64,000 bases of DNA from an uncultured Collinsella sp. (GTDB lineage Bacteria; Actinomycetota; Coriobacteriia; Coriobacteriales; Coriobacteriaceae). The translations under genes and the position numbers were made by a program. The stretch is taken from the NCBI GenBank assembly GCA_934646815.1, contig CAKUEW010000002.1, forward strand, positions 124,001 through 188,000, in the 5' to 3' direction. The notes beneath the pieces are model-generated. The model did no database searches. It was not told where the DNA came from and saw only the letters and a program-made list of their open reading frames with translations. Position 1 is the first letter of the stretch; each line of letters begins with the position of its first letter. This document shows, piece after piece, positions 4,343-30,384 of the stretch.

Positions 4343-4375
4343 TATTGAGGGGATGGGGTTGAGAGGCTGGCTTGG

Positions 4376-4612
4376 TTACCAGTCCTCGTCTGAGTCGTAG
4401 CCTGCGCTGTAGCCGTCATCCGCGTCCTCGTCCACGGCGAAGTCGCGGAGGTCGAGGCCTTCGCGTTCGGCTCGGGCTAGGAGCTCTTGGGGCGACTCGT
4501 CCTCGATATCCATCACGTCGAGCATGGCAGCCGAAAAGCCCACGCCGACTGCGCTCCCCGCGCAGTCGAGCAGGCTCTCGCGCAGCTGGTCAACGTCAAC
4601 GTCGATCTTCAT
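4376..4612 (-). CDS. Small acidic protein of unknown function at the end of the accessory island
   Basis: The 78-residue product is not a family I recognise. AGGAGG sits seven bases before the ATG, which supports a real gene. The protein is strongly acidic, and the last ~20 residues are almost all Asp, Glu, Gly, Tyr and Ser, ending in DSDEDW. No membrane segment or signal peptide is visible. It starts 42 bases after the stop of the SNF2-like helicase on the same strand, so it could be the last gene of that transcription unit; it could equally be an unrelated host gene. Acidic tails like this occur in DNA-mimic and protein-docking factors, but no such function can be shown here. Confidence 0.6.
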   Translation of the reverse strand: MKIDVDVDQLRESLLDCAGSAVGVGFSAAMLDVMDIEDESPQELLARAEREGLDLRDFAVDEDADDGYSAGYDSDEDW

Positions 4613-4653
4613 CGTACAACCTCCTGCCTGGCCAGACCCCTAGCCTAGTAGCC

Positions 4654-6600
4654 TCAGTTATAGTTCAGTCCCGAAGCAGCATCACCAAGCAACCGCTCAA
4701 AAATAATGCGAAGATCTTCCTCGTCTAAATATCCATCCTCAAGGTAGCCGCCGTCGATAGCGTCGAGCATTATCTTCTCTTTTTCCTTTAGGCGCTCGTA
4801 AATCACCTTATCCAGCGAGAAGGGTATGCCATTGCTTTCAAAGATCGTGCGCATAAAGTAGTAGCGGGTCTTCTGGTCATCGGGAAGTCCAAGGCGATGA
4901 ATGCGATCCTTAGACTGCAAGAGGTGAACAAGGTTATAGCTGTACTCAAAGTACACAGCGTCATGGCACACCGAATGCAGCGAAACGGACTCGGCAAGCG
5001 TCTGTGGATTGGTCACAAGCACCTTAAAGCGTCCGGCGCGGAAATCATCCAATATCGCACGTCGATCCTCTTGCGGCGTTCCGCCGTAAATCGCCCGTGC
5101 GTCAATCCCCTTTTCGGCAAGCCCGCGCCGTAAATTAGTAATGCTGCGGACGAACAAACACCACACCACAGCAGGGCGCCCCTGAGCAACGATACGCTCG
5201 ATAAGCAGTTCACACGCTAAGAGCTTTGAAGTCGGTCGAGCTCGATCAATGGACTCGTAGAATGTTTGCGAGAAGTCGACATAGTCGATATCGGAGAACT
5301 CCTCCCCAACCTGATCGAGCACATACTCCAAGTCTTCTTGATCGATGGCCTGCTCGAGCATGGCAGGGTCGCTCTCAAGCTGCAACGTGCGGATGATACG
5401 CGAAAATGCGCTAGAGCACGCGCTGGACAAGATATGCAAAAGCGAATTTTCGTCGGCAGTCGCTTCGACTTCCACAATTTCGTCGGGCTCAGGCGCAGGA
5501 ACACCAAGCTCATTCTTATTTGTGCGGCAGAAGAAAGGCGCAAGGCTTTTGTTTAGCTGCTCAATCTCATCCGCCCTGGGAGATTTAAGCTCACCCGGCT
5601 CATAGCCAAAAAAGGTGTCATAGTCCTCGGGATAAAGAATGTGCAGCAGGTTGTAAATATCCTGGTAGGTGTTAGGTATGGGCGTACCCGTAAGAGCAAT
5701 CACGTACTTCGCGCCCTCATTTGCCTCAAGTGCCGAGGTCGCGCGCCTGCCCTTGATCGCCTTGATGCGATGCACCTCATCGAATACGACGAGTGTTTGG
5801 TTGGAAACGATGGGGTGCAGCTCCCTCACATAGCCAGCAAGAGCCTCATAGTTAAACGTAAACAGATTGCATGAACCGCTATCCAGCGAAAGCGCGCTCC
5901 GACGCCGCTCGGTGGACATTGCTGCTATATGCGGGTCCCCCAGCGAAAAACAGCACAGGGGAAGTTTGTCTCCAAAGGATGCCACCCACTCTTTTTCCCA
6001 AGCTTCAAAGCCGTTTTTTGGACAGACGACCACGATACGCTTCGCAAGCCCCAGATGCCTTAAATATGCAAATACGCCGAGCACGGTTGCGGTCTTGCCC
6101 GCACCAGGCACCGAGAAATCGGCCGCGCGGCCGACGGCGGCCATAAAGAACGCATCGAGCATCTGGCGGTCGCGCAAGGGACGCACCATCGAGGCATTCA
6201 CTATATCGCGAAACTCCCGGAAACGAGGCCCCAACTGGGGATCGTCGGCTATGCTCTGGGCAGTCTGGGCCTTAATGGCAAGGCCAACTTCCGAGCGCTC
6301 TCGGATGTACGTCTCCGTTGCGCTTGCATACGCCTCGAAGCTCCGATCAACCGCCACCTCAACGCCATGCTCAGCGGCCTCCTGCACCACCTCGAGCATC
6401 TCCTGGCACTCGCGCAAGCCCATGGCGTCATCGAGCAGAATGCAGTCGCCCTCGGTACCCACCACAGCGCTTGCAGGATAGTAAAGCCAGGCGCGCCATA
6501 CCGTCGAAACCATGAACTCTACAACGCTCTGTCCTTCGATACGCAGGAACATGCCTGGACGGGCATCGTCGTAGCCGACGATAATTCTAGGAGCGGTCAT
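4654..6600 (-). CDS. SNF2-like superfamily 2 helicase, cassette A
   Basis: About 648 residues with a complete SF2 ATPase core: Walker A as PGAGKT (about residue 167), DEVH Walker B (about 270), LTGTPIPN motif III (about 303), and a C-terminal RecA lobe with TNPQTLAESVSLH and QSKDRIHRLG (motifs V/VI, about residues 525-575). The first ~120 residues are a family-specific N-terminal domain shared with the helicase at 18971-20899; the two align end to end and are clear paralogs. SNF2-type enzymes translocate on double-stranded DNA and remodel bound proteins. The gene overlaps the upstream ParB-like gene by about 14 bases, which implies translational coupling. The ATG at 6600 has a weak GGTGA site; an in-frame TTG at 6612 is the alternative. 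Confidence 0.85.
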   Translation of the reverse strand: MTAPRIIVGYDDARPGMFLRIEGQSVVEFMVSTVWRAWLYYPASAVVGTEGDCILLDDAMGLRECQEMLEVVQEAAEHGVEVAVDRSFEAYASATETYIRERSEVGLAIKAQTAQSIADDPQLGPRFREFRDIVNASMVRPLRDRQMLDAFFMAAVGRAADFSVPGAGKTATVLGVFAYLRHLGLAKRIVVVCPKNGFEAWEKEWVASFGDKLPLCCFSLGDPHIAAMSTERRRSALSLDSGSCNLFTFNYEALAGYVRELHPIVSNQTLVVFDEVHRIKAIKGRRATSALEANEGAKYVIALTGTPIPNTYQDIYNLLHILYPEDYDTFFGYEPGELKSPRADEIEQLNKSLAPFFCRTNKNELGVPAPEPDEIVEVEATADENSLLHILSSACSSAFSRIIRTLQLESDPAMLEQAIDQEDLEYVLDQVGEEFSDIDYVDFSQTFYESIDRARPTSKLLACELLIERIVAQGRPAVVWCLFVRSITNLRRGLAEKGIDARAIYGGTPQEDRRAILDDFRAGRFKVLVTNPQTLAESVSLHSVCHDAVYFEYSYNLVHLLQSKDRIHRLGLPDDQKTRYYFMRTIFESNGIPFSLDKVIYERLKEKEKIMLDAIDGGYLEDGYLDEEDLRIIFERLLGDAASGLNYN

Positions 6601-7798
6601 CGATTTCACCAATCAGCTCATCGACCCTGTTCCTCACGGCAACAAGGTTGACACGCACTTTCGAAAGTTCGATTGCGTTCAACACATCAAGCATCTCGGG
6701 AAGGATCTTATTTAGATCTGCGAGGCATTCAGCGGACTTCTTAGCCGGCGTATCCATAAGCTTGGAGCGGCGTACAGTCTCTCGAGCCTTATCGCCCGCA
6801 CGCGAGAAGCTATCGACCAGATTCCGATCCGCACGAAGCTCACTCACCTTTTCGCGAGTAAGGGGGTCGGGCCCCATCTTCTCGAGCAGTTCTGACATCG
6901 CTTGCTGCTCGGCGGCCTTAAATTCCGCCTCGGCGGGTGTGCCCGCCACGTTTCCAAAATCTCTGACATAGCGAGTAATATCGCCCTCGGGCTGCACGAC
7001 CATATTCGAAAACATCGCGCGCTTAACAAATTGCTGGTCGCGCTTGCTGCCGTATTTCTTCAGAACACGGCCGAATTCGCCCAAGGGGCCATCGACCTTA
7101 AGGGCGCGGGCGAGATGATACTGCTCGGGGGCTCGGCAGAACTCGAGAAACTCCTCCATGTACTGAGCGCGGTCGACAAGCTTCTTGACCTCGGATTCGG
7201 TCATGCCCGTCGCGGTCCCGTACTCGGCGGGAGTGATCAGGTGGTTCTTAACGATATCGCGGTACACACCAACAAGGCGATCGACGGGATCATAGGCAAC
7301 CTTTTCCTCCTCGCCAATCTGAATAGCGAGCTCCAGCAGCTTGATGCGCTTGGGATCGCTGCCGGTAGCATCGTCGATGATGGCCGCCTCGAACCAGCCC
7401 GCCTCGTTGTTTTGGCGTGCAAGACGGCGAATGCAGGTCAGGCGGCGGTTTCCGTCAATGACGCGGCCGTCGTTAAGCACGATGCCCGGCCTCAGCTGGC
7501 CGCGGAGCGCAATGCTCTTCTCGGTCTTCTTGAGCGCCCCGGGGTTGCTTTCGACAATGAAGCCTTCGATGGCCCCGTTATACTCTTCGCGGCCAAGCGC
7601 AAGTAGGTCCGCATCCTGCGCGGCGTTGTACTCGCTTACCCATGTTGCGATGCGATCGTTTTGGTCGTTGTAGAACAGCAGATCGCACTTGATGCGATAG
7701 ACATCAAAGACACGTGTCACGTTCTCGATGGAGTGCTTTTCTTTGCGCCCCGTCGGCAGAACGTTGCCGGTAGCAATCCCCTCGTCAAGCAAGCTCAT
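6587..7798 (-). CDS. ParB/Srx-fold protein with DGNRR motif, cassette A
   Basis: A 403-residue protein. A ParB-like N-terminal domain (about residues 50-180) contains VIDGNRRLTCIRRLA around residue 115, matching the position of the ParB GERR / DndB DGQHR nucleotide-binding loop. It is followed by an HTH-like segment around YGTATGMTESEVKKLVDRA and an alpha-helical C-terminus. AAAGGAGG seven bases before the ATG at 7798 fixes the start, although the frame stays open further upstream. It overlaps the 437-aa gene upstream by 14 bases and the SNF2 gene downstream. It is a clear paralog of the protein at 20900-22132. Whether it binds CTP, cuts DNA or acts as a regulator cannot be read from sequence alone. 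Confidence 0.8.
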   Translation of the reverse strand: MSLLDEGIATGNVLPTGRKEKHSIENVTRVFDVYRIKCDLLFYNDQNDRIATWVSEYNAAQDADLLALGREEYNGAIEGFIVESNPGALKKTEKSIALRGQLRPGIVLNDGRVIDGNRRLTCIRRLARQNNEAGWFEAAIIDDATGSDPKRIKLLELAIQIGEEEKVAYDPVDRLVGVYRDIVKNHLITPAEYGTATGMTESEVKKLVDRAQYMEEFLEFCRAPEQYHLARALKVDGPLGEFGRVLKKYGSKRDQQFVKRAMFSNMVVQPEGDITRYVRDFGNVAGTPAEAEFKAAEQQAMSELLEKMGPDPLTREKVSELRADRNLVDSFSRAGDKARETVRRSKLMDTPAKKSAECLADLNKILPEMLDVLNAIELSKVRVNLVAVRNRVDELIGEIDDRS

Positions 7799-9098
7799 TG
7801 CGTGCCTCCTTTTTCCATGCTTCCATGGATGAATAGTATGCGTCTCCGATGTCATCGTAATAGACGTCGGAATTATGAACGGTCGTCGTCAGGAGCGGCG
7901 CCGGACAGGCTATGCCCAAGTCACTCACGAGCAGACGCGGCAAATCATCGCGCTCGATTCCCTCATGGCGAGCGACGACCCACTCAATAAGACCAGTGGC
8001 AGAGAACCGCTCCTCGCCGCCAACGACAAATACCTTGGCGCCGGCAAGCGTACAGCTGCGGAATAACCCTGCCACGTCGAGCAGCCCCTCGTAAAAGTCA
8101 TCGGGCATATCCAACCCGTATAACGGGTGCATAGTCGCGCCACCCGCACGCAAGCTCGCTATGGTGAAGGGCTCTCCCTCGTTTGCATCTACACAAACCG
8201 TGGACGCATACGACTCGACGTCGGCCATACGCAGGCCCAGCACGTCGTGCAGCCGCGTAAATGAAATGTAGCTATCGCCTTCGTAGGCAAGCACGCGATG
8301 GTCCGAAAGCGCTTGGCGCAGTACGTGACGGAAGGCAGGATGCTGCCATACGGCATTCTCAAACCCGGCCTCGCCCTTCGCAAAGGACGGATGTGCCGCC
8401 AATAGCCGCGTAAAATGGCCGTTCGGGGTATCCCCCTCTTGGAAGAGCAGACCGTGGTCCTCGTAGTAGCCCGCGGCAACGATACCGCGATCGAACGCCT
8501 CGGACTGCTCGCCAGGAAACTCAAAACCAAAACGTCGGCGGACAAGCCCGGCATCACAAATCTGGTCGGCAAGCTCCCGAGCGAGAAAACCCTCAAGAGT
8601 GGGCGCCTCGCATTCGACGTCGCCCGTCTCAGGCGCCTCCGAGCGGACGACCGGAACGCCCGCCGGGTGCTCGGCAGGCTTGACGCCAAGCCACTCCGAG
8701 ACGCTCACGTCCGCCGGCTCGGCGAACAGATCGAGCCATATCGCGGCGACACCGGCGCTAAAGCCGTATTCACGCTCGTAGGCCTTGGCAATAACGTTTT
8801 TGGGCTCGCCCGCATGACGTTCGGCAAAGGCGCGCACCTGGCGGCGGCGATCGAATCCGCCGAATCCGACAGAAAGGTGGTCACCCAGAGTGACACCTTC
8901 GTCAGCGTTCCAGAAAACCTGCTTCAGCTCGTCATAGAGCGCGGCGGGCGTGGCGATCCCCGCGCGCCTTAGCTCGTTGCGCGAGGCGCGAAAGACCAGG
9001 CGGGCGCACAGCTCGGTGTCGTCGCCCCGCGCGGCATCCACCGCTGCCCGCGCCGCCTCCGCGCGCCCGTCCTTTGAGCTATCGGTCACATCTGCCAC
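7785..9098 (-). CDS. Stand-alone copy of the island's shared C-terminal module (437 aa)
   Basis: I do not recognise a named family. From about residue 30 to the end it aligns with the last ~370 residues of the 1065-aa and 1620-aa island proteins. Shared landmarks in order are: a FDRRRQVRAFAERHAG-like segment (compare TDRKNQ and ADRDAQ), an AYEREYGF segment, the block GEPFTIASLRAGG (compare DVPFTVMSLRKQG), a conserved [DN]xFYxxxL, and a final ERFSATGLIEWVV (compare GSFSSADAVEYVV). No catalytic motif or membrane segment is evident. It starts at GTG, with GAGGCG upstream and only four bases after the helicase gene. It is the counterpart, in cassette A, of the 1620-aa protein that precedes the ParB-SNF2 pair in cassette B. 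Confidence 0.75.
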   Translation of the reverse strand: MADVTDSSKDGRAEAARAAVDAARGDDTELCARLVFRASRNELRRAGIATPAALYDELKQVFWNADEGVTLGDHLSVGFGGFDRRRQVRAFAERHAGEPKNVIAKAYEREYGFSAGVAAIWLDLFAEPADVSVSEWLGVKPAEHPAGVPVVRSEAPETGDVECEAPTLEGFLARELADQICDAGLVRRRFGFEFPGEQSEAFDRGIVAAGYYEDHGLLFQEGDTPNGHFTRLLAAHPSFAKGEAGFENAVWQHPAFRHVLRQALSDHRVLAYEGDSYISFTRLHDVLGLRMADVESYASTVCVDANEGEPFTIASLRAGGATMHPLYGLDMPDDFYEGLLDVAGLFRSCTLAGAKVFVVGGEERFSATGLIEWVVARHEGIERDDLPRLLVSDLGIACPAPLLTTTVHNSDVYYDDIGDAYYSSMEAWKKEARNELA

Positions 9099-9102
9099 GC
9101 GC

Positions 9103-12100
9103 CTACGCCTCGTTCAGCTTGGGTCCAAAGACGCGTTCGACATAGGCGTCCAGTGTGCCTTCCTTGGCAAGCTCCGCAGAGTCCGCGAGCTCAAAGTTCG
9201 AGTTGCACCCCTGGCCGACCTCGTCGTGGAAGCCAAGGATAAAGTGCGTGGCGATCTCGTAGATGATCTTGGTGGGCGCGATACCAAATACCTGGCGCTC
9301 CAAGATATGATCCAGTCGCTCGCGATCGTCCGGGAAGGCCGCTTTCATGCCGTCGCTGTTGTACAGGCGTTTGATGATCTCTGTGATGTAGAGCCCCGAC
9401 TTCATGTATAGGTCGGCAAAGGTGTGACTCGGATCGTCGAAGCAGCCCGGGTTCTCCTTCTCAAAAAGGTCAACCATCTGGACCACGACGTTGCGCGGCG
9501 TGAAGATCTGGTTGGTCTTCTGGGGCGGCACGTAATCGAAGATGTCCTCCGTCTGGGACTCGTCAAAGTAGTTGGCAAGGCGTTGGCGAAGCTTGATGAA
9601 CTCGCTGACGGAATCGTTAAACACCACCTCGTCGAAGAGGTGCCCGGCGAACTGCTTTGTCTCACCAGTCTCGGCATCGGTGTAATCGCCGCCATCGCGC
9701 AGAAAACGGAACTCGTCCACGGTGATGCTCGTAACATCGAAGAAAACGTCTGCGGGAATCACGGTATCGAAGTTCGCGAGCGTCGTATTGTCCTCGCCAT
9801 ACGCCATAAGGAACGACGGGATGGTGCGCGAGAAGCCACGAAGATGAGCGCGGACCTTGTCCTCGATACCCTGTTTCTCGTCCTCCTTTTTCGCCGTCTC
9901 TACCTCGCGCACCACGGTCTCGCCGGCGCTCTGCACGAGCTCCTCGCGGGAGTCCTCGAGCTTTTGAGCAAGTGCCTGGAACGCCTCGGCCTTCTGCTCA
10001 TCATGCCTTTGGTTCACCTCAGCACGCTCGGCAGCACTGACAGCCGCCTTGAGCTCGTCCTTGCGCGATTGTTCGATACGACGCGCCTGAATCTGATAGT
10101 CACCGACCTGGCGGTTGAGCTGAATGTCCGCATCGGCCTGAACCTTGCGCTCAAGCTGTTTCTGTTGTCGCGGCTTGAGCTCGCTGCCATAGCTCTCCTT
10201 GGCGGCCTGCACCAAGGGCGCTGTCACGCTTTGCTTAAACGCATCCTTGAGGTTTTCGAGCATAGCGCTGTCATCGTTGTCAGCCGCGTGGGCTTTTGCG
10301 ATTTCTTCGACCTGGCCCGAGAACTCAACGACAACATCGCCGTAGACCTTCGGCCCAAAGACGTCAGCCGCCTTGCCAACGACCTGCTCCTCGGGAATCT
10401 CCACATCGCCTTCGTCGTTAATCGAGAGCTTGTCAGCGGTGCCCTTGTCGATCTCGACTTTGTTCTTCTCGGCGTTCTGTGCCTTGCCCTGCTCATAAGG
10501 GTCAAATCGTTGAATGATCTCCACGACCTCGGCCGGGGCGCGAAAGACGCTCGCGATGTTCTGGAACAGGAAGTTGCTCATAAATCCGCGTTTGACCACC
10601 TCGCAGGCATGGATGTGCCTCGGCACGCTGAGTACCTGCTCGGCGTCGAGCTCGACCATCTGGCCCTCGTCGTCCTCGCCGTAGACGGGGAAGAAGTTCA
10701 ACAACTGGCGGATATGGCGCTCGCGCGTCTCCACGTCGCCGCCACCACGGGCAGTATCGCCGTATAGGTCATTAGCGAACTGCTCAAAGATGGTGAGCGT
10801 GCGGGCAGGGTCGAAGTCAAAGACGTACGCGTTTTCCTTGCGCGCGTAGTTACCGCCGCCCAAATCGAACAGGCAGGGGTTCTGGCTGCGAAAAGCCGCC
10901 TGCATGTAAAGCGCGGGGCTCGCCATGTTCGAAAGCATGAGCACGGCGGTCCACTCGGGCACGGTCACGCCCGTGGTGAGCTGGCCCACCGAGAGCGTAA
11001 TGGTCTTGTCGTGCTCCTTGATCGCACGGCGCACCTTGTCGAGCGATTTCTCGTTCTCGTCATCGGCGTCGATCTTACCGTCGCCAGCAGCGAGCACCAC
11101 CTCGTAATCCTTGAAGACGGGGTGCGCCTGCAGCTTCTTGGCAAGGGCGCGTGCGGAGTCGACGCGGTTGAGCATCCAGAACGTATGGCGCAGCTCGTCA
11201 CGCAGCTCGGGCGTCGAGAACGGGAACTTTTTCTGCGTGGTTAGCGCCTCGAGGAATTTGTCCACGTCGGCGTCGTGGACAAAGGCCCCACCTTGTTTGG
11301 TCGAGAAAAACTCGTTGAGGTCGAAGGCAAACTCAGTCTGCTCGCCGTCAATCTCCATGCCGCCGCGAGCTTCCTGCTCCACAATGTCGCTCATCTGGTA
11401 CGTGAGCAGATTGAGCTTAGGCAGATTCGCGTAAGGGTTCGGCTGTTCGGAGTCGGCCGGCCAGTCGCGCTTTGCCTGCTGCTCGTCGGCGTACGTCCAG
11501 TTGTAGATGGCGTCTTCGGCGAACTTCTCGTTAGCAATGGCCTTAAAGGGCGTACCGGAAAGATGCAGCGTAAAACGGCGCTTGATATGGTCAAACGCCA
11601 CGTCGGTCTTAAAGGTGTCGACGCCCTCGTGAGCTTCGTCGATGATGAGCACGTCCCACGTAAGGTCGGCCGCCTCGTCGAGCTTCCGATATATGCCGCC
11701 AAAGCGGATGGAGCCCTTGAGGTCCTGAAGGCTCACAAACTCGATGAACCCCCTGGGGCCCTCGGGGTCGTTATGGAGAGTGCGCAGGTATTCCTCACGG
11801 CTGAGGCAGTAGGGCTTATCGGCAAGGGCGTCCACGCCGCTGATAAAGCGGTAACCGCCCTCCAGGCCCACGAACTTTACGTAGTCGTCGTACCAGGAGT
11901 TGGCGATGGCGGGACGGTTGGTGACGATGAGCACCTTCTGCGCGCCGATGCTGCGGCAGAGGTCATAGGCGGTGAGCGTCTTGCCAAAGCGCGGCTTCGC
12001 GTTCCACAGGAACTCGCCGCCGTGCGCGCCGCCCTCGTCCCAATGGGCGCGGGCGAAGGCGCCCGTCTGCTCCACTGCGCGCTGCTGCTCGGCGCGCAGT

Positions 12101-12486
12101 GTATAGGAAGCCGCGCCGGGCGCATCCAGCACGCCGTCGGTGTCGCGGAACCGATAGAACTGTTGGTGCGACTCCTCGCCACTGATCTTGAACCATTCCT
12201 TTTTTGGTTCGCGCTCGACTCCCTGCTTCTCCAAATAGGCATGAAAGTCGGTGTCATGGAACGTGCCCGCGCGGTGCTCCCAAGTGGCGTTGCCGCTCCA
12301 CTCCAGGTGCCATTGCACGTCGGCGGTGTGCGTCTGCTGTTTGATGCGCTCGCGCACGTCCTGCTCGGTGTAGCCGATCTTGATCCATCCGTTGTGGCGG
12401 GCGATCTCGGGCGTGGTGTAGGCATAGATCTGCGGCACCGCGGGAACGGTGGTCTCGATGATCTGGGAGATGTCGATGCTAGCCAT
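9103..12486 (-). CDS. GIY-YIG (Mug113/T5orf172-type) nuclease fused to DEAH helicase and a methyltransferase-like C-terminus
   Basis: This 1127-residue protein is restriction-like. Residues ~15-110 resemble a GIY-YIG domain: IYAYTTPE, then WIKIGYTEQDVRERI and a terminal EWFKI. A type I/III restriction SF2 helicase follows: KPRFGKT (about 163), LIIDEAHEG (about 282), LHLSGTPF (about 310), GQLTTGVTVPEW and a QAAFRSQNP motif VI. Residues ~735-880 are a charged coiled coil. The last ~140 residues contain NQIFTPRNVVVQMVDLF and DLYMKSGLYITEI, which look like motifs X and I of a gamma-class N6-adenine methyltransferase with altered glycines. AAAGGAG precedes the ATG, two bases after the methyltransferase gene, so the pair is probably co-translated as a restriction-modification-like unit. 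Confidence 0.8.
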   Translation of the reverse strand: MASIDISQIIETTVPAVPQIYAYTTPEIARHNGWIKIGYTEQDVRERIKQQTHTADVQWHLEWSGNATWEHRAGTFHDTDFHAYLEKQGVEREPKKEWFKISGEESHQQFYRFRDTDGVLDAPGAASYTLRAEQQRAVEQTGAFARAHWDEGGAHGGEFLWNAKPRFGKTLTAYDLCRSIGAQKVLIVTNRPAIANSWYDDYVKFVGLEGGYRFISGVDALADKPYCLSREEYLRTLHNDPEGPRGFIEFVSLQDLKGSIRFGGIYRKLDEAADLTWDVLIIDEAHEGVDTFKTDVAFDHIKRRFTLHLSGTPFKAIANEKFAEDAIYNWTYADEQQAKRDWPADSEQPNPYANLPKLNLLTYQMSDIVEQEARGGMEIDGEQTEFAFDLNEFFSTKQGGAFVHDADVDKFLEALTTQKKFPFSTPELRDELRHTFWMLNRVDSARALAKKLQAHPVFKDYEVVLAAGDGKIDADDENEKSLDKVRRAIKEHDKTITLSVGQLTTGVTVPEWTAVLMLSNMASPALYMQAAFRSQNPCLFDLGGGNYARKENAYVFDFDPARTLTIFEQFANDLYGDTARGGGDVETRERHIRQLLNFFPVYGEDDEGQMVELDAEQVLSVPRHIHACEVVKRGFMSNFLFQNIASVFRAPAEVVEIIQRFDPYEQGKAQNAEKNKVEIDKGTADKLSINDEGDVEIPEEQVVGKAADVFGPKVYGDVVVEFSGQVEEIAKAHAADNDDSAMLENLKDAFKQSVTAPLVQAAKESYGSELKPRQQKQLERKVQADADIQLNRQVGDYQIQARRIEQSRKDELKAAVSAAERAEVNQRHDEQKAEAFQALAQKLEDSREELVQSAGETVVREVETAKKEDEKQGIEDKVRAHLRGFSRTIPSFLMAYGEDNTTLANFDTVIPADVFFDVTSITVDEFRFLRDGGDYTDAETGETKQFAGHLFDEVVFNDSVSEFIKLRQRLANYFDESQTEDIFDYVPPQKTNQIFTPRNVVVQMVDLFEKENPGCFDDPSHTFADLYMKSGLYITEIIKRLYNSDGMKAAFPDDRERLDHILERQVFGIAPTKIIYEIATHFILGFHDEVGQGCNSNFELADSAELAKEGTLDAYVERVFGPKLNEA

Positions 12487-12488
12487 GG

Positions 12489-14684
12489 CTAGTTCATCTC
12501 CTTTACGTGGGATTCGATGAACTCAATTTCGTTGTCATCGAGGCCGTACTTCGCATAAAGCTGGCGGTCGATGTCGGCCACGGACTGCGTCCAGTCGATG
12601 TCGGAGTTAACGGTGAAGTCCTGGAGAGGAACAAACTTCCATTTTTCAGGAGGGTTGTGTTGCGTAATTTTAAGAACTCCAAGCATAGCCCGGACGAACT
12701 TCGTGCAGATGTACTTATAGATAGCCTGTGCTTCTTCTTCGGAATCAACAGAGCCAATACCAAGGAATGTCTGCGTATACCCCAGTTCGGGCGTGCCGAT
12801 AATTGGTGTGCTCAGTGTCTCTCCGAATTTACCGCTTCCGTTAACGGCAGTGATTAGAACTTTATACTTGTTGTAATTCTCTGCGAGATCAATGTAACTC
12901 GAACGAATCCACTTGGAGCATCGTTGTCCATTTGCACGCCCCAAGATTCTGCAGTATTCGTGCTCGTCGTTCGGTTTTGCATCAAAAAATAGATCCTCAT
13001 CCCAATTGGGCAAAGTAAGCAAGTCGAATATATTAGTTGTAATAATCCGGAGATTGCTTAACTTACCCTCTTTCTCATCTTTTGATAATTTATTTCGATT
13101 TTTTGCAATGTACTCAACTTCGGCTTTGCGGTTCGGAAAATCCTCCCACAGCCGATTTGCAAGCGTGTATGTTGAATACGGATACATTATGCTGCCGAGA
13201 TCCGAGATGAAGAGAGCCTTAACCTTCTGTGAAATCGAATTCAGCTCTGGATAAGAAGTAAAGGTGCCGATGGGCCCTAATATCACTTGAGAGTCTCGAT
13301 AGTGTATGGCAACCCCACCTTTAATTTCGGCTCCACAGAAGACTTTTGAGCTATCGGGCTCATAGTGTAAAACCTTGAAATGTTCGTCACTGAGCATTGC
13401 TTGATTCCATGTTTTAGGAGTTGCTCCAGCGTTGAATAGGAAACGGGCAGGCGTGATAAGCTCAACCCTGTCTGATACCTCATATGCCGCATCCATAAAA
13501 ACATTGTAGACGGGCATATCTTTCGTTGTTTCGCGGCTCTCTTGGTACGGGGGGTTTCCAATCACCGCATAGAACTTCTTTCCCATGGCTGCTGCCTTAC
13601 CTTTCAATGAGGCGAACTCGAAGGGCTCGCCGTTCTGCCAGTCGTATATAACGCACAGGGGAACCGTTTCCTTCGGCTCATCTTTCTTGGTCTCTTCAGT
13701 TGTCTCCTCGGGGAATACGTCGTCGAACAGGTCGAAAAGTGACGGCTGTATCGGTTCCGGCTCGGGCTCCTCGAACGTTCCCAGGGTCGACTCCACCTCG
13801 GCGCCCATCTTGTTGGTGGGCACGGCGTCCGTGAAGCCGTTCATCTGCCAGAAGTTCCAGGAAACGATCCACGCCGCCTGCTCGAGCTCGTCGGGCTCGG
13901 AGTCCGACCCCCAGCGGTCGCGGAGATGCTCGGCGACCGTCTCGAATACATTGATGCGGGCGATGAGCAGGTTGTCACCCTGGTACTCGAAACCGTACGT
14001 CGCGCGCAGCGCGTCGAGGGCGCGGCGAACCCACTCCTTGCGCGTCTTGGTCTTCTCGGTCACGACACGCAGTTTGCGGTCCAGGAAGCCCACGCGCTCG
14101 CCTACAGGCAGCTCGTCGCCCGTCACGGTGTCGTAGCGCGAGCACACGAACGGCGCCTCGCCGCATGTAATCTCGAGCCGCGACGCCTCCACGTAGGCAT
14201 GCCAACCATGTCCCTTCGACTTGGGGAATACAATCGGCTCATCAGTAGTCGCCCATGTCTTGGCGCCGTCTTCCGCAACGGTCTCGGTATTGAAAACATC
14301 GCGACGGCCGAACCACACCTCATCCAGATCGTTATTCATCTGATTGCACAGCCATGCCGGCGAGAAAACTTCGGCACGGCTCTTAGTACGCAGCGACTGC
14401 TGCTCAATGGCCTTCGCAATGCGCGGCCTGATCACATTAACGTTTGGACCCGTAATCTTCTCGACGGTTATCTCGTCGTCGCCCATATAGCCATCGCCCA
14501 GGGCTTCGTACTCGTTGTCCGCCCAGATAATATTGCGTCCCGTTGTACGGTCACATAGAAGCGTCTCTAGGATATGTCTGGAATAACGCTGTTCAAAGCC
14601 TTCTAGGAAGCTTTCGCCCAGTTTTTTATGCTCGGCAGTTTCCACGCGCCATTGACTCCTCTTCGCAGGTTTTTTATTACACAT
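12489..14684 (-). CDS. Eco57I-type gamma-class DNA adenine methyltransferase
   Basis: A 731-residue protein with the methyltransferase landmarks in order: motif X-like EVFSPAWLCNQMN (about residue 110), SAM-binding motif I LEITCGEAPF (about 168) with a nearby acidic SRYD, and the catalytic NPPY at about residue 375 (VIGNPPYQES). The C-terminal ~300 residues would hold the target-recognition region. Expected activity is N6-adenine methylation of DNA, giving self-protection to a restriction module with the next gene. The ORF opens at ATG 14684, but an in-frame GTG at 14645 has a better AGGAG site, so 14 fewer residues are possible. About 125 bases separate it from the upstream gene. The stretch ~12.7-13.5 kb looks AT-richer than its neighbours, a sign of transfer. 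Confidence 0.8.
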   Translation of the reverse strand: MCNKKPAKRSQWRVETAEHKKLGESFLEGFEQRYSRHILETLLCDRTTGRNIIWADNEYEALGDGYMGDDEITVEKITGPNVNVIRPRIAKAIEQQSLRTKSRAEVFSPAWLCNQMNNDLDEVWFGRRDVFNTETVAEDGAKTWATTDEPIVFPKSKGHGWHAYVEASRLEITCGEAPFVCSRYDTVTGDELPVGERVGFLDRKLRVVTEKTKTRKEWVRRALDALRATYGFEYQGDNLLIARINVFETVAEHLRDRWGSDSEPDELEQAAWIVSWNFWQMNGFTDAVPTNKMGAEVESTLGTFEEPEPEPIQPSLFDLFDDVFPEETTEETKKDEPKETVPLCVIYDWQNGEPFEFASLKGKAAAMGKKFYAVIGNPPYQESRETTKDMPVYNVFMDAAYEVSDRVELITPARFLFNAGATPKTWNQAMLSDEHFKVLHYEPDSSKVFCGAEIKGGVAIHYRDSQVILGPIGTFTSYPELNSISQKVKALFISDLGSIMYPYSTYTLANRLWEDFPNRKAEVEYIAKNRNKLSKDEKEGKLSNLRIITTNIFDLLTLPNWDEDLFFDAKPNDEHEYCRILGRANGQRCSKWIRSSYIDLAENYNKYKVLITAVNGSGKFGETLSTPIIGTPELGYTQTFLGIGSVDSEEEAQAIYKYICTKFVRAMLGVLKITQHNPPEKWKFVPLQDFTVNSDIDWTQSVADIDRQLYAKYGLDDNEIEFIESHVKEMN

Positions 14685-14808
14685 ACGCCAGCGATGTTAT
14701 TAGAGAGTGCTGCACTAAAAGGCATCAAAAATCTCTGCATTCACCCATCGCCACGCGCATGATGCGATATGCAATATAGACGAATTATACGGTACAGCTT
14801 GGCAATAC
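14685..14808. promoter_or_regulatory. Short intergenic gap inside the island
   Basis: On the minus strand a TATAAT hexamer occurs at 14784-14789. The nearest TTGCCA lies only 10 bases upstream, too close for a normal promoter. An internal promoter for the methyltransferase half of the island is possible but unproven. Confidence 0.25.
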
Positions 14809-18006: not shown

Positions 18007-18064
18007 GTTCGTCCTGCCACCTTTCCTAGGCATAAAGAACGGCTATGGGCTCGCGGGGGCTGCC

Positions 18065-18967
18065 CTACTGCCCCAACTTCCTAAGCGCTTGCAGGGACGC
18101 TGCGCGGGTCTCGGCGTAGGCAAGGCGCGCGTCGCTCAATTGCTTGTCGATCATGTCGACTTTTCCGCTCAGCACCTCAACTTGCCTGCCGATCTCCTCC
18201 ATGTCGGCCATCGTTTTCCAGCTCTTTTGGTTCGAGAGGTCCCGATACTTGCGACGCAAGGAGAGCAACTGGTTGAGCAGCGCATTGCGCGCGTGGTCGA
18301 GCTCCATCATCTTGTCGCGCGCGCTTTTAACTTCCCGCAAAAAGCGCTGCTTTTCTTGCTCCGTCGACAGGGGCGCGGGGGCAGGCTCAGTCTCCGCCTC
18401 CACAGGCACCGGATCTTCCATCTCCAAAAACGCGCAGATCCCCGGCTCCGTCGCCGGCCTTGCCTCGAGCACGGTGGCAATCACGCTGCTGCTCAGCATC
18501 GTGCTCTGCGAGCAAAGCACCGCGCGAAAGCGCCGCATAAGAAAGCCAAACCCGGATATCTGCCGTGCCAAGCGCTCGTCAAAGGCAACGCGGATCTCGC
18601 CCTCGTCGCCCTGCCGCATCGTAAGCCAGTCGCCCACGCACATGAGCTGCACAAGCGTAATGGGCGTCAGGTCGCCCTCAAAGAGCAGCTGCAGACGGGG
18701 CAACACATCGTCGCGGGGAACGACAAGCTCGGTATGCTTCTCGAGCTCAGCGAGCGTGGTGCCGACGTACTGGCACAAATCGATATTGCTCGGAACATCC
18801 GTAAAATGCTCGCGCGCATGGCTCAGAAGCCACTCGCTTTTGTCGGCGTTGATGCGAACGCGCTTAACGGCATGCGCCGACCCATCCCACGTCACATCGG
18901 AATGCGTCAAAAACAGCCAGCCGTCGCAAAACAGCTCCATGACAAAGATGGGAAAGGCTTTCTGCAT
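18065..18967 (-). CDS. Coiled-coil protein of unknown function in cassette B
   Basis: The 300-residue product matches no family I know. The first ~180 residues look globular, opening with FVMELFCDGWLFL. A Pro/Glu-rich linker (EAETEPAPAPLS, about 190-205) follows. The last ~95 residues are a long amphipathic coiled coil rich in Arg, Lys, Glu and Leu (KSARDKMMELDHARNALL onward). It starts three bases after the SNF2 stop, with GAGGAG upstream, so it is co-translated with cassette B. Cassette A has no equivalent. A scaffolding or dimerising role is a guess from the coiled coil alone. Confidence 0.65.
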   Translation of the reverse strand: MQKAFPIFVMELFCDGWLFLTHSDVTWDGSAHAVKRVRINADKSEWLLSHAREHFTDVPSNIDLCQYVGTTLAELEKHTELVVPRDDVLPRLQLLFEGDLTPITLVQLMCVGDWLTMRQGDEGEIRVAFDERLARQISGFGFLMRRFRAVLCSQSTMLSSSVIATVLEARPATEPGICAFLEMEDPVPVEAETEPAPAPLSTEQEKQRFLREVKSARDKMMELDHARNALLNQLLSLRRKYRDLSNQKSWKTMADMEEIGRQVEVLSGKVDMIDKQLSDARLAYAETRAASLQALRKLGQ

Positions 18968-18970
18968 CGT

Positions 18971-20899: not shown

Positions 20900-22132
20900 T
20901 TAGGCTTCCTCGCCGCCCATCTTGTAGGCGATCTTGTCCTTGATCATGCTCACCCTGGCCTCCAGCTTGGCAAGCTCGGCAGCGATATTGGCAACCTCGT
21001 CCGCAGGCAGCAGGCCAAAGGTGGACTCCTCCACCTGATCAAGATCCTTGATGGCGCGGGTGATCGAGAGCGAAGGCGACTTGAGGGCCTTGTTCATCTT
21101 GGTGGTGTTTTCGGCCGATTCCATAACCTCGCGGAAGGCCGTCCCCAGCTGAACGTCGTCGCGGATCTCGGCGATGTCGGTCGAGGTCACGACCTCCTTG
21201 TTCTTAAGGCGCTCGGCGACTTCAAAGGCCAGCTCATTCTCGCGGTCAATAAAGCGCTCGGCGTCGGGGCCCTCCAAAATCGGCTTTATCTTGCGGACAA
21301 AGCGCACGATGTCGCCCTGCGGCTCGGCAATCATGTTGGCAAAGACGATGTTCTTGGCGTCCTCTTCCTGATCATCGCTCTTGCATTTTTTAAGGACGCC
21401 CTGCAACTCGTTGATAACGCCGGCGACCTTGAGTTCGCGCGCCAGGTGGAACTGGTCCTTGGCGTTGGCAAACTCCAAAAACTCGTTCATATAGCGGGCT
21501 TTAATAATCTCCTTCTCGAGCTCCTTGGGCTCCACGCCAATGCACTGGGCGTATTCCTCCTTGGACAGCAGGTTGGAGCTAATGATGTCGTTGTAGATGC
21601 CCACCAGGCGGTCGACGGGGTCGTAGCCTACCTTCTCTTCCTCGCCATGCTGGATCGAGAGCTCCAGCATCTTGATCTTCTTTGAGTCGTTGCCCAGGCT
21701 CTCGGGCAGAATGACCGCCTCAAACCAGCCAAAACTGGGATTTTTGGCGGCAAGGCGGCGCAGGCACGTAAAGCGGCGGTTGCCGTCGACGATCAGGCCG
21801 TCGGCCAGTACCACGCCAGGGCGCTCCTGCGAACGCAGGGCAATGCTGCGCTGCGTCTTGTCGATGGCGTCCTTGTTGCTGTCGACGATAAAGCCCTCGA
21901 TGATGTCGTTGCAGGCGGCAACGTCCAGCTCGTTAAACGCATGCTCGCCGTGCTCGGCCTTGTAGCGGCTAATCCACGAGGCGATACGGTCGTTTTGCAC
22001 GTTGTAGCGCAGATACTCCAGCTTAATGCTGTAAACGGGATACATCTCGGGCTTGCCGTCGATCACGATTTTGTGGCTGGCGCCGGTCGGCTTAATGTTG
22101 ACACCGTCGCCGATCATCTCGAGCAGGTTCAT
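20900..22132 (-). CDS. ParB/Srx-fold protein with DGNRR motif, cassette B
   Basis: 410 residues, paralogous throughout to the protein at 6587-7798. Both share NDRIA[ST]W[IV]S near residue 45, EGFIV[DE]SN, SIALR, VDGNRRFTC[LI]RRLA near residue 115, GEEEKV[GA]YDPVDRLVG, the HTH-like segment, and an [MN]xFLEF block. The DGNRR loop corresponds to the nucleotide-binding loop of ParB and to DGQHR of DndB-like proteins. GGAGGAAG lies seven bases before the ATG, and the gene begins 12 bases after the 1620-aa gene. Constant pairing with an SNF2 helicase in both cassettes suggests the two proteins work together. Nuclease, NTPase or purely DNA-binding roles remain open. Confidence 0.8.
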   Translation of the reverse strand: MNLLEMIGDGVNIKPTGASHKIVIDGKPEMYPVYSIKLEYLRYNVQNDRIASWISRYKAEHGEHAFNELDVAACNDIIEGFIVDSNKDAIDKTQRSIALRSQERPGVVLADGLIVDGNRRFTCLRRLAAKNPSFGWFEAVILPESLGNDSKKIKMLELSIQHGEEEKVGYDPVDRLVGIYNDIISSNLLSKEEYAQCIGVEPKELEKEIIKARYMNEFLEFANAKDQFHLARELKVAGVINELQGVLKKCKSDDQEEDAKNIVFANMIAEPQGDIVRFVRKIKPILEGPDAERFIDRENELAFEVAERLKNKEVVTSTDIAEIRDDVQLGTAFREVMESAENTTKMNKALKSPSLSITRAIKDLDQVEESTFGLLPADEVANIAAELAKLEARVSMIKDKIAYKMGGEEA

Positions 22133-22144
22133 GTTGGCTTCCTC

Positions 22145-27007: not shown

Positions 27008-27311
27008 ACAGAAACGACCCCCAAGAATCCATGGCGCAACCTACCGGCTACGTCGGGAAATAAGGAAGATGATTGTTATTACTACTTCATACGCCACTTG
27101 TGAGCGTATTTGTTTAGCAACATTTTGTTGCGCAACAAATCAACTGTGCATATGCAGATGAGCGGTAGTTTTAATCGGTGAACGGCGATCGCGCACACTT
27201 AGAACCCGTTTCATTTTCCTTGGCTCCGCGGCAATTAAAATGAACCTGACGCGCGGTTACATCCCGCGCCTCACGCGTCTCAACTTGTCCGCATATCTTC
27301 AGGAGTCCGTA
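27008..27311. promoter_or_regulatory. Divergent promoter region of the island
   Basis: These 304 bases separate the leftward island series from the rightward SNF2 gene. A possible rightward promoter is TTGCGC at 27128-27133, a 17-base spacer, and TATGCA at 27151-27156. The leftward promoter cannot be placed with confidence. The region looks AT-richer than the genes around it. Confidence 0.45.
27117..27139. promoter_or_regulatory. Palindromic operator candidate
   Basis: TTTGTTGCGCAACAAA at 27124-27139 is a perfect 16-bp palindrome. It overlaps a second inverted repeat, GCAACA (27117-27122) / TGTTGC (27126-27131), so GCAACA occurs twice, 15 bases apart. It overlaps the possible rightward -35. 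This fits a dimeric regulator controlling both directions. Confidence 0.5.
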
Positions 27312-30251
27312 ATGGCAAGACCGTTTAGCCCCAGCGAAGCAAAAGCAATCGTCTCGAAAGCGCGGGAGCTGCTGGACGCCATCGAGGTTATTTCGAGGGC
27401 CACGATATACGGACCCGACAGCTTTAGGGACGCGATCACGCAAGCCAAGACACAAACGCTGAACAAAGAACTTCGAAAGATAAAACTCAGCGACCTTAAA
27501 GTAACGAAGGGCGCACAGAAGAGGCTCAAAGCTCAAAACATCAAGACGGCATACGACCTCTACTGTCATGGTGAATTGGCAAAAGATGATGACTATTTCA
27601 AAATACTCGTCCGCATGGCGAATGAATGTGCCGACGCAATTCGCGAGCTCTATCGACCCAAACCGAAAAGCACCCATATGCGCGACGCGCTCTTTTTTGC
27701 CGCGCGCTACTACAAGTCCCAGCAACTTGCCGAAACCTACGCGTCTGCGATTCATGATGCCCGCACCGTTCTTGAGGACTGTGATGTTTTGACCCAAAAC
27801 AGCGGCAGACTTCGCTGGCTCTTGCTAAGTGCCGCCGACAAGCAGACGACCGAGGCTGCATATCATCGCCTTGTGCAATTCACGGGCACCTCTAACAGCA
27901 ATTTTCTGAGAGACGGCCGTCGGCGAGCGGACAACATTCTTGGCATGAGCACAAGCGCCAAACTGGATGCGGAGATCCGGAAGATAGCCATCGATATCAT
28001 CGCTGAGGACGCAGGCGAGAACCTCTTTGCAGCTGACACTAAGCCCAACAGAGACGAAATTGAAGCGGCGGTCTATGGCGCTGAAGACAGAATTCCCGGA
28101 AACACAGTTTCCAAATTGGAAGAAAAGCTTAGGCGCAGCAAAAACCAAATCCGCAAACAAGCAAACAAGGCCCGCCACGCCGATGCTCGGCGCTACGTTT
28201 CTGAGCAATCGGTCGACATCCTTAAAGATTTGGTTCCAGGCGTCCGAATCAAGTGCATCAAGGATGCTGGATATACGACGCTCGCCCAGATCATGTATGG
28301 CAGATTGCGCAGACGCGAAAAACAGCTTAGGGATAACTACGAGCAGAGGTCCGATCTAAGAAGAATTAATGGCATTAGCGAAAGCGCTGCCGAAAGAATT
28401 GTCGAGGCTATTAAACAGCAGACCGACATGCTCGCAAAAAGCGGCAAGATTAAACTGACCCCCGACAATAAAAAGCCCGAGGACACGGCGCTTCTCCAGG
28501 AAGTCTATAAGCACTTTGAGCTGGAGGAGTTACTCAACGAGGCCAAGGCAGCATCCGCACGCATCACCGAAGAGTTTTCGGAGCTGCAAGACCAGCTCAT
28601 GCCGGCGCTCGATGCGTATGGCTGGCTTATCTGCAAAGACCGCGACACGGTTTACGACGCGTACAAAAAACTCAGCGATCTTACGAACGGTACCGAGCTC
28701 AAAAAGATCAACAGCTACGTCGGACGCAACCTCAAAGAGCTGGACGAGAAAACCGTGTGGGAGCTCTTCGGGGCCGACCCCATCCGCGTGTACAACCTGC
28801 TCGAAAAGCTAATTCCCGAGGCGTTTTCTTCGACTTCCAACGGCTACGGCCTGCCCGAGAAGCTCGCCAAACAAATTAAAACGACGACGTTCGATACCAC
28901 GGGGCTTAAGTGCGAGCTCCGTACGTACCAAACATGGGGCGTTCGCTACATACTGCATCAGAACAACGTGCTGCTGGGCGACGAGATGGGATTGGGTAAG
29001 ACGGTCCAGGCCATCGCCGCGATGACCGCGCTCAAAAACAAAGGTGCCAAGAAGTTTTTGGTCGTTTGTCCCGCCAGCGTTCTGGAGAACTGGGTGCGCG
29101 AGGTGCGCAAACACAGTGACCTTACGTGCATTAAAATCCATGGGCCCGCGAAGGACCTCCATGCAAAGACATGGCTGGCGGGGCTGGATGTGGGCGTCAC
29201 CAACTATGAGAGCACCAGCTACATTGAGCTTGACCAGTCGGTGAAACTCGATCTGGTCGTCGTCGACGAGGCCCATTACATTAAAAACCCAAACGCCAAG
29301 CGAAGCATCAATACGCTCAACCTGTGTAAGCAGGCAAAGCGCGTTCTGTTTATGTCGGGTACGCCGCTCGAGAATAAGGTCGACGAGATGATCGGGCTCG
29401 TGTCGCACCTCAACAAAAAGGCTGCTCGAGAGGCAAGAAAACACGCCAGCAGATTTAGTTCTGCAGAATTTAGAGACGCTCTGGCGCCGGTTTACTACCG
29501 TCGCAAGCGCGAGGACGTGCTCTCGGAGCTGCCCGACCTCATCGAAAACAGCGAGTGGTGCCAGATGGGATCTTCGGAGCTCCAGCAATACTACCTAACC
29601 CTGCGGATGCGAAACCCAATGCAGATCCGTCAGTTGTCGTGGAACACCCCGGACCCCCGCGACTCGTCCAAGCTCAAACGTCTGCGCGAAATCGTTGCCG
29701 ACGCCAAAGACGAAAACCGCAAAATCTTGGTGTTCTCGTTCTTCCACGACACCATCGACGTGGTGCGTTCAGCGTTTGGAAGTGCGTGCTACGGTCCCAT
29801 CAGCGGATCTATCCCACTCGATAGACGCCAGAAGATTATCGATTCGTTTGACGCGGCGACCGCCGGCTCTGTACTGGTGGCGCAGATTCAGTCGGGCGGC
29901 ACGGGACTTAATATTCAGTCGGCAAGCGTCGTCGTGTTGTGCGAGCCGCAGTACAAGCCCTCGATCGAAAACCAGGCCATTTCGCGCGCGTACCGCATGG
30001 GGCAATCGCGCAACGTGCTGGTGTATCGCTTGCTGTGCAAAGACACGATCGACGAGCGCATCATGTCAGTCCTCGAGCGCAAGCAGGGCGACTTTAACGC
30101 CTTTGCAGACAAGTCCGCTGCCGCCGAAGCCGACATGCAAAACGAGCTCGAGGTCAAACAGGAGCAACTCAACGCCATGTTCGACGAAGAGATTAAACGC
30201 CTGGAGAACCTGATGCCCTCGCTCGCAGAACTCGATCTGCTGGAGGAGTAA
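27312..30251 (+). CDS. SNF2-family DNA translocase with helix-hairpin-helix N-terminus
   Basis: About 979 residues. The C-terminal half is a classic Swi2/Snf2 ATPase: GDEMGLGKT (about 558), VVVDEAHYIKN (about 650), MSGTPLENKVDEM, and in lobe 2 QSGGTGLNIQSASVVV and ISRAYRMGQSRNVLVYRL. It is therefore closer to canonical Snf2/Rad54 than the two cassette helicases. The N-terminal ~530 residues are specific, with helix-hairpin-helix-like stretches (VTKGAQKRLKAQNIKTAYDL; LVPGVRIKCIKDAGYTTL then INGISESAAERIVEAI) that resemble the alpha-CTD-like part of the 1065-aa protein. AGGAG seven bases before ATG 27312 supports this start over one at 27240. It is divergent from the rest of the island and likely part of the same system. 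Confidence 0.85.
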   Translation: MARPFSPSEAKAIVSKARELLDAIEVISRATIYGPDSFRDAITQAKTQTLNKELRKIKLSDLKVTKGAQKRLKAQNIKTAYDLYCHGELAKDDDYFKILVRMANECADAIRELYRPKPKSTHMRDALFFAARYYKSQQLAETYASAIHDARTVLEDCDVLTQNSGRLRWLLLSAADKQTTEAAYHRLVQFTGTSNSNFLRDGRRRADNILGMSTSAKLDAEIRKIAIDIIAEDAGENLFAADTKPNRDEIEAAVYGAEDRIPGNTVSKLEEKLRRSKNQIRKQANKARHADARRYVSEQSVDILKDLVPGVRIKCIKDAGYTTLAQIMYGRLRRREKQLRDNYEQRSDLRRINGISESAAERIVEAIKQQTDMLAKSGKIKLTPDNKKPEDTALLQEVYKHFELEELLNEAKAASARITEEFSELQDQLMPALDAYGWLICKDRDTVYDAYKKLSDLTNGTELKKINSYVGRNLKELDEKTVWELFGADPIRVYNLLEKLIPEAFSSTSNGYGLPEKLAKQIKTTTFDTTGLKCELRTYQTWGVRYILHQNNVLLGDEMGLGKTVQAIAAMTALKNKGAKKFLVVCPASVLENWVREVRKHSDLTCIKIHGPAKDLHAKTWLAGLDVGVTNYESTSYIELDQSVKLDLVVVDEAHYIKNPNAKRSINTLNLCKQAKRVLFMSGTPLENKVDEMIGLVSHLNKKAAREARKHASRFSSAEFRDALAPVYYRRKREDVLSELPDLIENSEWCQMGSSELQQYYLTLRMRNPMQIRQLSWNTPDPRDSSKLKRLREIVADAKDENRKILVFSFFHDTIDVVRSAFGSACYGPISGSIPLDRRQKIIDSFDAATAGSVLVAQIQSGGTGLNIQSASVVVLCEPQYKPSIENQAISRAYRMGQSRNVLVYRLLCKDTIDERIMSVLERKQGDFNAFADKSAAAEADMQNELEVKQEQLNAMFDEEIKRLENLMPSLAELDLLEE

Positions 30252-30384
30252 AGACCCTCCCCCATGTAACCATCCTGTAAATCATAGCGGCACACTCGGG
30301 TTTTACCGTGATGCGGTCGCGCCCGCCGTTGCACTGTGCTAAAGTATCCCGAACGTTCAAACGACTACGAGGGGGACCTAGAAG

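Follow-up and report, generated by a model that had tools for sequence, protein, structure and literature searches.

We report that an accessory island of about 26 kb in DNA from an uncultured Collinsella sp. is two related gene cassettes plus separate pieces, not a single 26 kb system. The island spans positions 4,376 to 30,251 of the window, a 64,000-nucleotide stretch of assembly GCA_934646815.1 (contig CAKUEW010000002.1, positions 124,001 to 188,000, forward strand) from whose first letter all positions are counted. Each cassette encodes, in this order, a C protein, a ParB-like B protein and an SNF2-type ATPase, A. Tentatively, we read C-B-A as an accessory module that would serve modification-based restriction systems in recognition and translocation. 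The original prediction, made from the letters of the window alone, had described the island as one or two cooperating systems of defence or conflict. The defence context is borne out and two cassettes are indeed present, but they are accompanied by a separate restriction-modification (RM) pair and an independent SNF2 gene, gained and lost in blocks.

Two related cassettes in one island

Ten long open reading frames (ORFs) run leftward from 27007 to 4654, with intergenic gaps of -71 to +124 bp, in the transcription order C1620, B410, A642, X300, C1074, M731, R1127, C437, B422 and A652; S1003 runs the opposite way. An all-versus-all comparison of the island proteins gave 47% identity between A652 and A642 and 42% between B422 and B410, and found a C-terminal module common to C437, C1074 and C1620. 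From the identities of the A and B pairs, it follows that the island holds a duplicated three-gene cassette. The right unit is C1620-B410-A642-X300-C1074, and the left unit is M731-R1127 followed by C437-B422-A652.

The right cassette, on the minus strand like all ten leftward genes, begins with C1620 (22145..27007), whose product has an acidic, low-complexity N-terminus, ends in the common module and yielded no sigma-4 motif. B410 (20900..22132) has a predicted ParB/KorB/Noc fold, a DGNRR motif and C-terminal helices, and A642 (18971..20899) is an SNF2 ATPase by Pfam in which Walker A (PGSGKT) and Walker B (DEVH) motifs can be read. The fourth gene, X300 (18065..18967), encodes a protein that is coiled-coil by eye only and has no family match in Pfam, PADLOC or NCBIfam scans. 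C1074 (14809..18033) carries a domain resembling the C-terminal domain of the RNA polymerase alpha subunit (alpha-CTD; aa 239-300), sigma region 4 (aa 451-505), which Pfam also matches, and, by predicted secondary structure, tandem winged helices over about aa 505-1074. In the left unit, M731 (12489..14684), an Eco57I-type DNA methyltransferase that is hypervariable at about aa 450-650, and its restriction partner R1127 (9103..12486), with a T5orf172 nuclease domain and a ResIII helicase, precede C437 (7785..9098), a short C protein with only the common module. The second ParB-like protein, B422 (6587..7855), has homologues that start at codon 20 (403 aa), and the second SNF2 ATPase by Pfam, A652 (4654..6612), ends the unit. 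The divergent S1003 (27240..30251, plus strand) is an independent accessory gene for an SNF2 ATPase, matched by NCBIfam SNF2 models below their cut-offs.

The gene content claimed in the original prediction was found in full, with the ten leftward ORFs, the divergent 1003-aa ORF, three SNF2 proteins, two ParB-like proteins, three proteins with a common module, the methyltransferase and the nuclease-helicase. Its 1065-aa protein corresponds to C1074 read from a later start, and its 'ten to eleven' genes and start at 4376 are explained by a small acidic ORF of 78 aa (4376-4612, minus strand) at the island edge. What it called an unknown module is largely explained as winged helices, preceded in C1074 by the alpha-CTD-like domain and sigma region 4. 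It had not noticed the duplication of the cassette.

PADLOC (2023) and NCBIfam served as defence models. The PADLOC scan covered the ten leftward proteins (for the SNF2 proteins, the best 25 families each), S1003 lying outside it and outside the Pfam scan; C1620 was scanned by PADLOC and Pfam only. In PADLOC, the A proteins match generic SNF2 models, M731 and R1127 give methyltransferase and type IIG matches, B410 and C1074 have one weak match each (E ~0.01), and B422, C437, X300 and C1620 have none. C437, X300, B410 and C1620 have no Pfam match. B and C thus have weak or partial matches at best to defence models.

Palindromes at 27108..27140, between the divergent C1620 and S1003, include a perfect 16-bp one (27124-27139) that is a weak candidate for an operator; it is imperfect in two Collinsella relatives (L006 and L007, below), and matches with two mismatches occur near chance frequency. 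In both relatives, the intergenic sequence around the palindromes seems to be strongly conserved. Just left of the island, at 4272-4345, is an inverted repeat with arms of ~24 bp by eye, resembling a terminator or a repetitive extragenic palindrome.

Exchangeable blocks at the serC site

The island sits beside serC, and its flank shares 88% identity with Collinsella aerofaciens TSDC17.2 (L005), which has a BREX-1 operon at the same serC-side place. The TSDC17.2 record (NZ_OY725717) is labelled a plasmid (899,693 bp) yet has serC, tgt and pst genes and resembles a piece of a chromosome. Locus L007, also from Collinsella, retains both the flanks and the right unit, while the left unit M-R-C437-B422-A652 is absent as one block (4754..14753), swapped for 88 bp; ~27274-30254, containing S1003, is swapped for ~760 bp of other sequence. 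Locus L006 has S1003 and C-B-A-X, with brxA, brxB and brxC directly after X, no C1074 between and no left unit. The L006 and L007 genomes have one B match each. These differences among L005, L006 and L007 indicate a hotspot whose blocks can be exchanged; the island holds at least three of them. In Bifidobacterium, Arcanobacterium, Paraeggerthella and other Collinsella, M-R-C437-B-A occurs with no right unit in the fetched DNA.

Broken copies were seen in L007, L027, L029, G010 and G188, with an in-frame stop in C, M and R each split in two frames, and A and B fragments, as expected of costly accessory genes.

Distribution of the cassette

A search of the genome collection confirmed 289 B relatives, of which the best 80 loci were kept. 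By hidden Markov model (HMM), 46 of these 80, from four phyla, have the order C-B-A (38 CBA, 5 CCBA and 3 mixed). The other 34 comprise B then C without A (24), C-B without A (4), B-A (2), B only (2), two B pieces (1) and a fused B-A (1). Taking for each gene the start nearest the preceding stop, C and B lie within 20 bp or overlap in 52 of 54 cases, and B and A in 49 of 52. Among 296 Coriobacteriia genomes, with scoring confined to the first few candidates of each and cut-offs of 1e-3 for B, 1e-15 for C and 1e-60 for A, the A and B searches matched the same 12 genomes, and C matched 11 of these and one more. The remaining genome, G188, has only A and B fragments. For C, 36 of 48 genomes had been set aside, as their matches (E 3e-17 to 1e-15) cover the alpha-CTD end only and look like ordinary alpha subunits. 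Five of the 12 genomes had come up before in the collection-wide B search. The conserved order in other phyla and this co-occurrence show that the association is more than chance. The original prediction had proposed looking for such neighbours in distant genomes: ParB-like, SNF2 and module genes do stand together there, an outcome mostly favourable to the prediction, but B-A without C and C alone also occur.

Two further C genes deserve description. In L145, from a genome of the Clostridia search, a solitary C gene (5207-7795), with alpha-CTD-like repeats by eye, has no A or B within the 15 kb fetched. In L150 (genome G175; 415-10962), a BREX-1 locus encloses a C-type gene of 1128 aa. On one side of this gene is a PglX part, on the other a stretch that by eye resembles the C-terminal part of PglX, and a PglZ match comes next.

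The M731-R1127 pair

By their families, M731 (Eco57I, 53.9 bits; MTase_II, 309 bits) and R1127 (T5orf172, which we take to be of the GIY-YIG type, and ResIII) are a restriction-modification pair. Relatives of R1127 with 63-69% identity occur in 11 Coriobacteriia genomes, and all 11 regions fetched have an M731 relative near R, several as two frames. There is no A, B or C within these 11 stand-alone regions; one of the genomes (G201) has B elsewhere. Thus, M-R also lives without C-B-A, and the methyltransferase and helicase that had been counted into the predicted system are present beside the left cassette without being confined to it. A GmrSD-like gene (39-88 bits) follows R in four of the 11 regions (L157, L159, L160 and L161), as if it were an alternative partner to C-B-A; L026, L027, L029 and L030 have both.

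The joined form was compared with six loci from Bifidobacterium, Arcanobacterium, Paraeggerthella and Collinsella. Between the island and five of the six, identity is 90-95% for R, 80-87% for B, 73-82% for C and 76-80% for A. Mean identity of M731 to four of the six is 80-94% over aa 51-350 and 18-42% over aa 451-650, a variable stretch as expected of a putative target-recognition region. Such a variable stretch in M, beside conserved R, B, C and A, fits horizontal spread with changing target specificity.

Predicted architecture of C, B and A

An alignment of 45 C proteins (C1074, C1620 and 43 of the 87 frames that the HMM matched in the fetched DNA, leaving out fragments, second copies, near-duplicates and C437-type frames) shows that the family mostly joins alpha-CTD-like repeats, sigma region 4 and winged helices. 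Pfam finds Sigma70_r4 in 42 of the 45 and RNA_pol_A_CTD in 35; among the 16 families matched there is no Sigma70_r2. The sigma-4 recognition helix, which aligns with TRERIRQ of SigA/RpoD, is among the best-kept regions of C, with 41-43 of 45 proteins agreeing at five positions. In sigma factors, residues of this helix read the -35 element. In the first alpha-CTD-like repeat, putative counterparts of the alpha-CTD residues that read the UP element are kept in 25-39 of the 45. For C1074, a model with mean predicted local distance difference test (pLDDT) of 76 and whole-model predicted template modelling score of 0.45 places both domains, followed by repeated helix-helix-helix-hairpin units that we read as predicted winged helices. 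The fold search gave no clear match from ~aa 505 on, which does not by itself show a new fold. C would thus be a DNA reader by prediction, and for much of the family the DNA read would be promoter-like.

The B410 model (pLDDT 91) matches KorB, ParB, Noc and sulfiredoxin, KorB being the best structural match. B has, as a predicted fold, both the ParB nucleotide-binding fold and a helix-turn-helix domain. The ddrB-ParB Pfam match of B422 is weak (16.7 bits, below cut-off). DGNRR and other polar residues are conserved in B and are suggestive, no further, of loading and sliding that depend on cytidine triphosphate (CTP). Homologues of B are common, at least 2823 among 7999 scored. In a B-C variant, B of L053 bears an N-terminal Swt1-type HEPN domain and a HIRAN gene follows C; of the 29 frames that match B and reach 540 aa or more, 25 contain an RNxxxH motif.

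A642 and A652 have no nuclease domain and no phospholipase D (PLD) domain in Pfam. Elsewhere, 20 A proteins of 840-880 aa have an extra N-terminal region with the consensus HxKx5D and GSNNET, HxKx5D being present in all 20 aligned; the strict HxKx4D occurs in none of 22 long A proteins. Both long A proteins scanned match PLDc_2, and in the one scanned against PADLOC the PLD part matches PbeA with 234 bits. The effector-like part thus varies, being a PLD nuclease on A, a HEPN RNase on B, or adjoining RM, BREX or GmrSD genes. Two loci are of separate interest. In Staphylococcus pasteuri (L037, 13-4437), a B-A fusion (1024 aa) is followed by a gene that matches HEPN_Apea at cut-off (24.4 bits). 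In L046 (637-8134), an outlying locus, an SMC/ABC-type ATPase gene comes after B and a PLD-type A, which may connect C-B-A with Pbe-type systems.

Restriction genes beside the cassette

The cassettes adjoin type I, II and III restriction systems, BREX and GmrSD. We scored 33 loci that contain A and span 18 kb or more, using reference proteins drawn in part from these loci themselves. In 18 of them a methyltransferase or BREX gene lies beside the cassette, compared with 1 of 20 control stretches of the same contigs. Without the six M-R loci the count is 12 of 27, and 9 of 22 with near-duplicates also removed. On viral contigs, all 18 loci have RM genes, as scored with references taken among them.

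This per-locus comparison replaced a protein tally over 125 of 193 flank and 125 of 235 control proteins, which counts families and not single proteins. As a hint only, PADLOC models of C5-type methyltransferases were tallied in four flank proteins; of the seven control families with two members, none is a methyltransferase or restriction enzyme, and one control protein matches MTase_I. Among the top 25 Pfam families, the flanks gave C5 methylase (4), MutH-type nuclease (4) and AspBHI (2), and the controls PDDEXK_1 (2), the one restriction-like family with two members there.

Proposed function and alternatives

What is observed are the families, predicted folds, gene order, co-occurrence, exchanged effector-like parts and block structure. 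From these we infer that C-B-A defends. C would read DNA, in much of the family promoter-like, via its alpha-CTD and sigma-4 domains. B, loaded by C, would form a nucleotide-controlled clamp on DNA by analogy with ParB and KorB, and A might then pump along the DNA and bring in or trigger an effector, so that incoming DNA would be blocked. In the left copy, joined to the RM pair, M731 would mark self DNA and R1127 cut; the right copy may act by roadblock or silencing, or rely on enzymes encoded elsewhere. Our preference, held tentatively as a reading that may well fail, is for C-B-A as an accessory to modification-based restriction systems, contributing recognition and translocation.

Several facts weigh against it. 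The right cassette has no nuclease or methyltransferase recognised in the family scans, and for 15 of the 33 loci the flank yielded neither a methyltransferase nor a BREX gene. The references of the flank test were partly circular, as noted, and RM genes cluster with unrelated defence genes, so that neighbourhood alone is no proof of joint action. The alpha-CTD DNA-contact motif is missing from C1074 itself, and C1620 and C437 have no alpha-CTD or sigma-4 match in Pfam; promoter reading therefore rests on one of the three island C proteins and the wider family. A database search with C1074 returned nine homologues only, all close (83-91% identity; 1063-1065 aa in seven of the nine). The likeness of B to ParB is one of predicted fold, with a marginal best Foldseek E of 2e-3 and no sequence-level match to ParB structures in the Protein Data Bank set. 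The trio is also not indivisible. Among 291 Clostridia genomes, B was found in six and C in two, with one in common (C accompanies B in one of six); B-A without C occurs in loci of viral type and in three or more clostridial genomes, one of these clostridial pairs in a C5 methyltransferase/BanI-DpnII-like locus; and C stands alone once (G347) and once inside the BREX locus of G175. For the genome searches, the scoring of only the first few candidates in each genome belongs with these reservations.

KorB-like and sigma-like parts are classic regulators, and for this reason we take seriously, doubtful as we find it, the alternative that C-B-A is itself a regulator, with B as a KorB-like repressor, C as a promoter-binding protein and A as a RapA-like remodeller, governing how the adjoining restriction genes are expressed and so timing methylation before cutting on entry to a new cell. 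The KorB structure that B matches best is titled a transcriptional repressor, promoter-reading domains are found in C-family proteins, palindromes lie upstream of the right operon, and the cassettes adjoin very different RM systems, all of which need timed expression. However, with coding stretches of about 4.4 and 8.0 kb in the window and a motor ATPase, C-B-A is large for a regulator. Variants bear their own PLD nuclease or HEPN RNase domain, the flanks of 15 of 33 loci yielded no methyltransferase or BREX gene, M-R does without C-B-A in all 11 regions checked, and the 16-bp palindrome is imperfect in L006 and L007. Those same 15 loci, the right cassette and the A642 and A652 proteins, in which no nuclease domain was found, speak instead for a self-standing defence that silences transcription, in which C and B would coat incoming promoters and A would keep host DNA free, with RM genes as mere island company; ParB, KorB and Noc relatives do coat DNA. 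We regard this as unlikely, since the RM linkage in 18 of 18 viral contigs and the PLD and HEPN variants point to destruction. Improbable, in our view, is that C is an integrated decoy, displaying copies of the alpha-CTD and sigma region 4 that phages attack, such that a takeover protein binding or modifying C would free clamp and motor to act on an effector (PLD, HEPN, RM or BREX). The fold search with C1074 lists a complex of G1 ORF67, presumably a phage protein, with staphylococcal sigma-4 (4g6d), which shows only that such targeting of sigma-4 exists.

Two further readings we consider very unlikely. Partition or maintenance of mobile elements, in place of defence, is suggested by 66 plasmid records (52 of them Enterococcus); against it stand long genome contigs in many hosts, the association with RM, BREX, HEPN and PLD, and three opened plasmid regions with no ParA annotated beside the cassette, PLSDB annotation being incomplete. 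Less credible even than partition is a single cooperating system of the whole 26 kb. Ten genes on one strand with short gaps would suit it, yet the block structure led us to reject it: L007 has the right unit only, BREX takes the place of C1074 and the left unit after S1003 and C-B-A-X in L006, and in the DNA fetched from other genera and other Collinsella the left unit stands without the right one.

If the preferred reading of C-B-A as a recognition and translocation module is true, defence systems now listed as separate would share a module for recognition and delivery. The RNA-polymerase parts borrowed by much of the C family would suggest how defence could distinguish ordinary DNA from foreign DNA that is active, or from a phage taking over transcription. 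B homologues being common, the reading would also offer a hypothesis for many genes now annotated as 'hypothetical' or 'DEAD/DEAH box helicase'.

Comparison with known systems

As originally predicted, the island fits none of DISARM, BREX, Dnd and Druantia as a whole system; PADLOC and NCBIfam list no pglZ, brxC, drmB or dndC/D match for its proteins. The SNF2 ATPase and methyltransferase, and the PLD nuclease in C-B-A variants, are reminiscent of DISARM, but neither DrmA nor DrmB is matched in these two sets, and the SNF2 match to DrmD is weak (36.6 bits). BREX type 1 occupies the same site in L005, follows C-B-A-X directly in L006 and encloses a C gene in L150; in the island proteins themselves there is no BREX core match in Pfam, PADLOC or NCBIfam. 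As for Zorya, ZorD gives SNF2-type matches only (46-58 bits), and PADLOC lists no ZorA/B match.

RK2 KorB, ParB and Noc are CTP-dependent DNA clamps, from which the island B proteins differ by an extra helical C-terminus and an SNF2 ATPase partner; at the sequence level B matches none of the three in the Protein Data Bank set. Both the RNA polymerase alpha-CTD and sigma region 4 are matched by C1074 domains, including the -35 recognition helix, whereas sigma region 2 is not found in the C family, and C fuses these parts to tandem winged helices. MzaA (NCBIfam NF041931), a sigma-4-bearing protein of the named anti-phage system MZA, matches C1074 in the sigma-4 stretch alone, with 17.6 bits against a cut-off of 800.

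The available parts of two papers describe PbeA as the PLD-helicase protein of PbeABCD systems with a CxC ATP-binding cassette (ABC) ATPase (PMC6459918, PMC10853773), and a modification-linked restriction logic is, to that extent, common to these systems and C-B-A loci. A652 and A642 match PbeA only in the SNF2 part (43.8 and 31.9 bits) and carry no PLD; no CxC ABC-ATPase (PbeC) or DndE (PbeD) match is listed for the island, which has a ParB-fold protein and a C protein instead. A Swt1-like HEPN fused to ParB (Saro_3948) is listed in PMC3710099, the available part of which mentions no C-type protein or C-B-A cassette with such fusions. GmrSD, described as ParB plus HNH in the part of PMC12839542 at hand, is the gene after the cassette in L026; no HNH part was found in the island B proteins, which have a separate SNF2 partner.

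The available parts of PMC12839542, PMC10853773, PMC3710099, PMC5512222 and PMC6459918 contain no description of C-B-A, nor was the trio found in the literature searched, outside which lay most subscription papers, all bioRxiv preprints and the MZA/Azaca papers. The parts are of known kinds; what looks new is their combination and its recurrence next to unrelated restriction systems.

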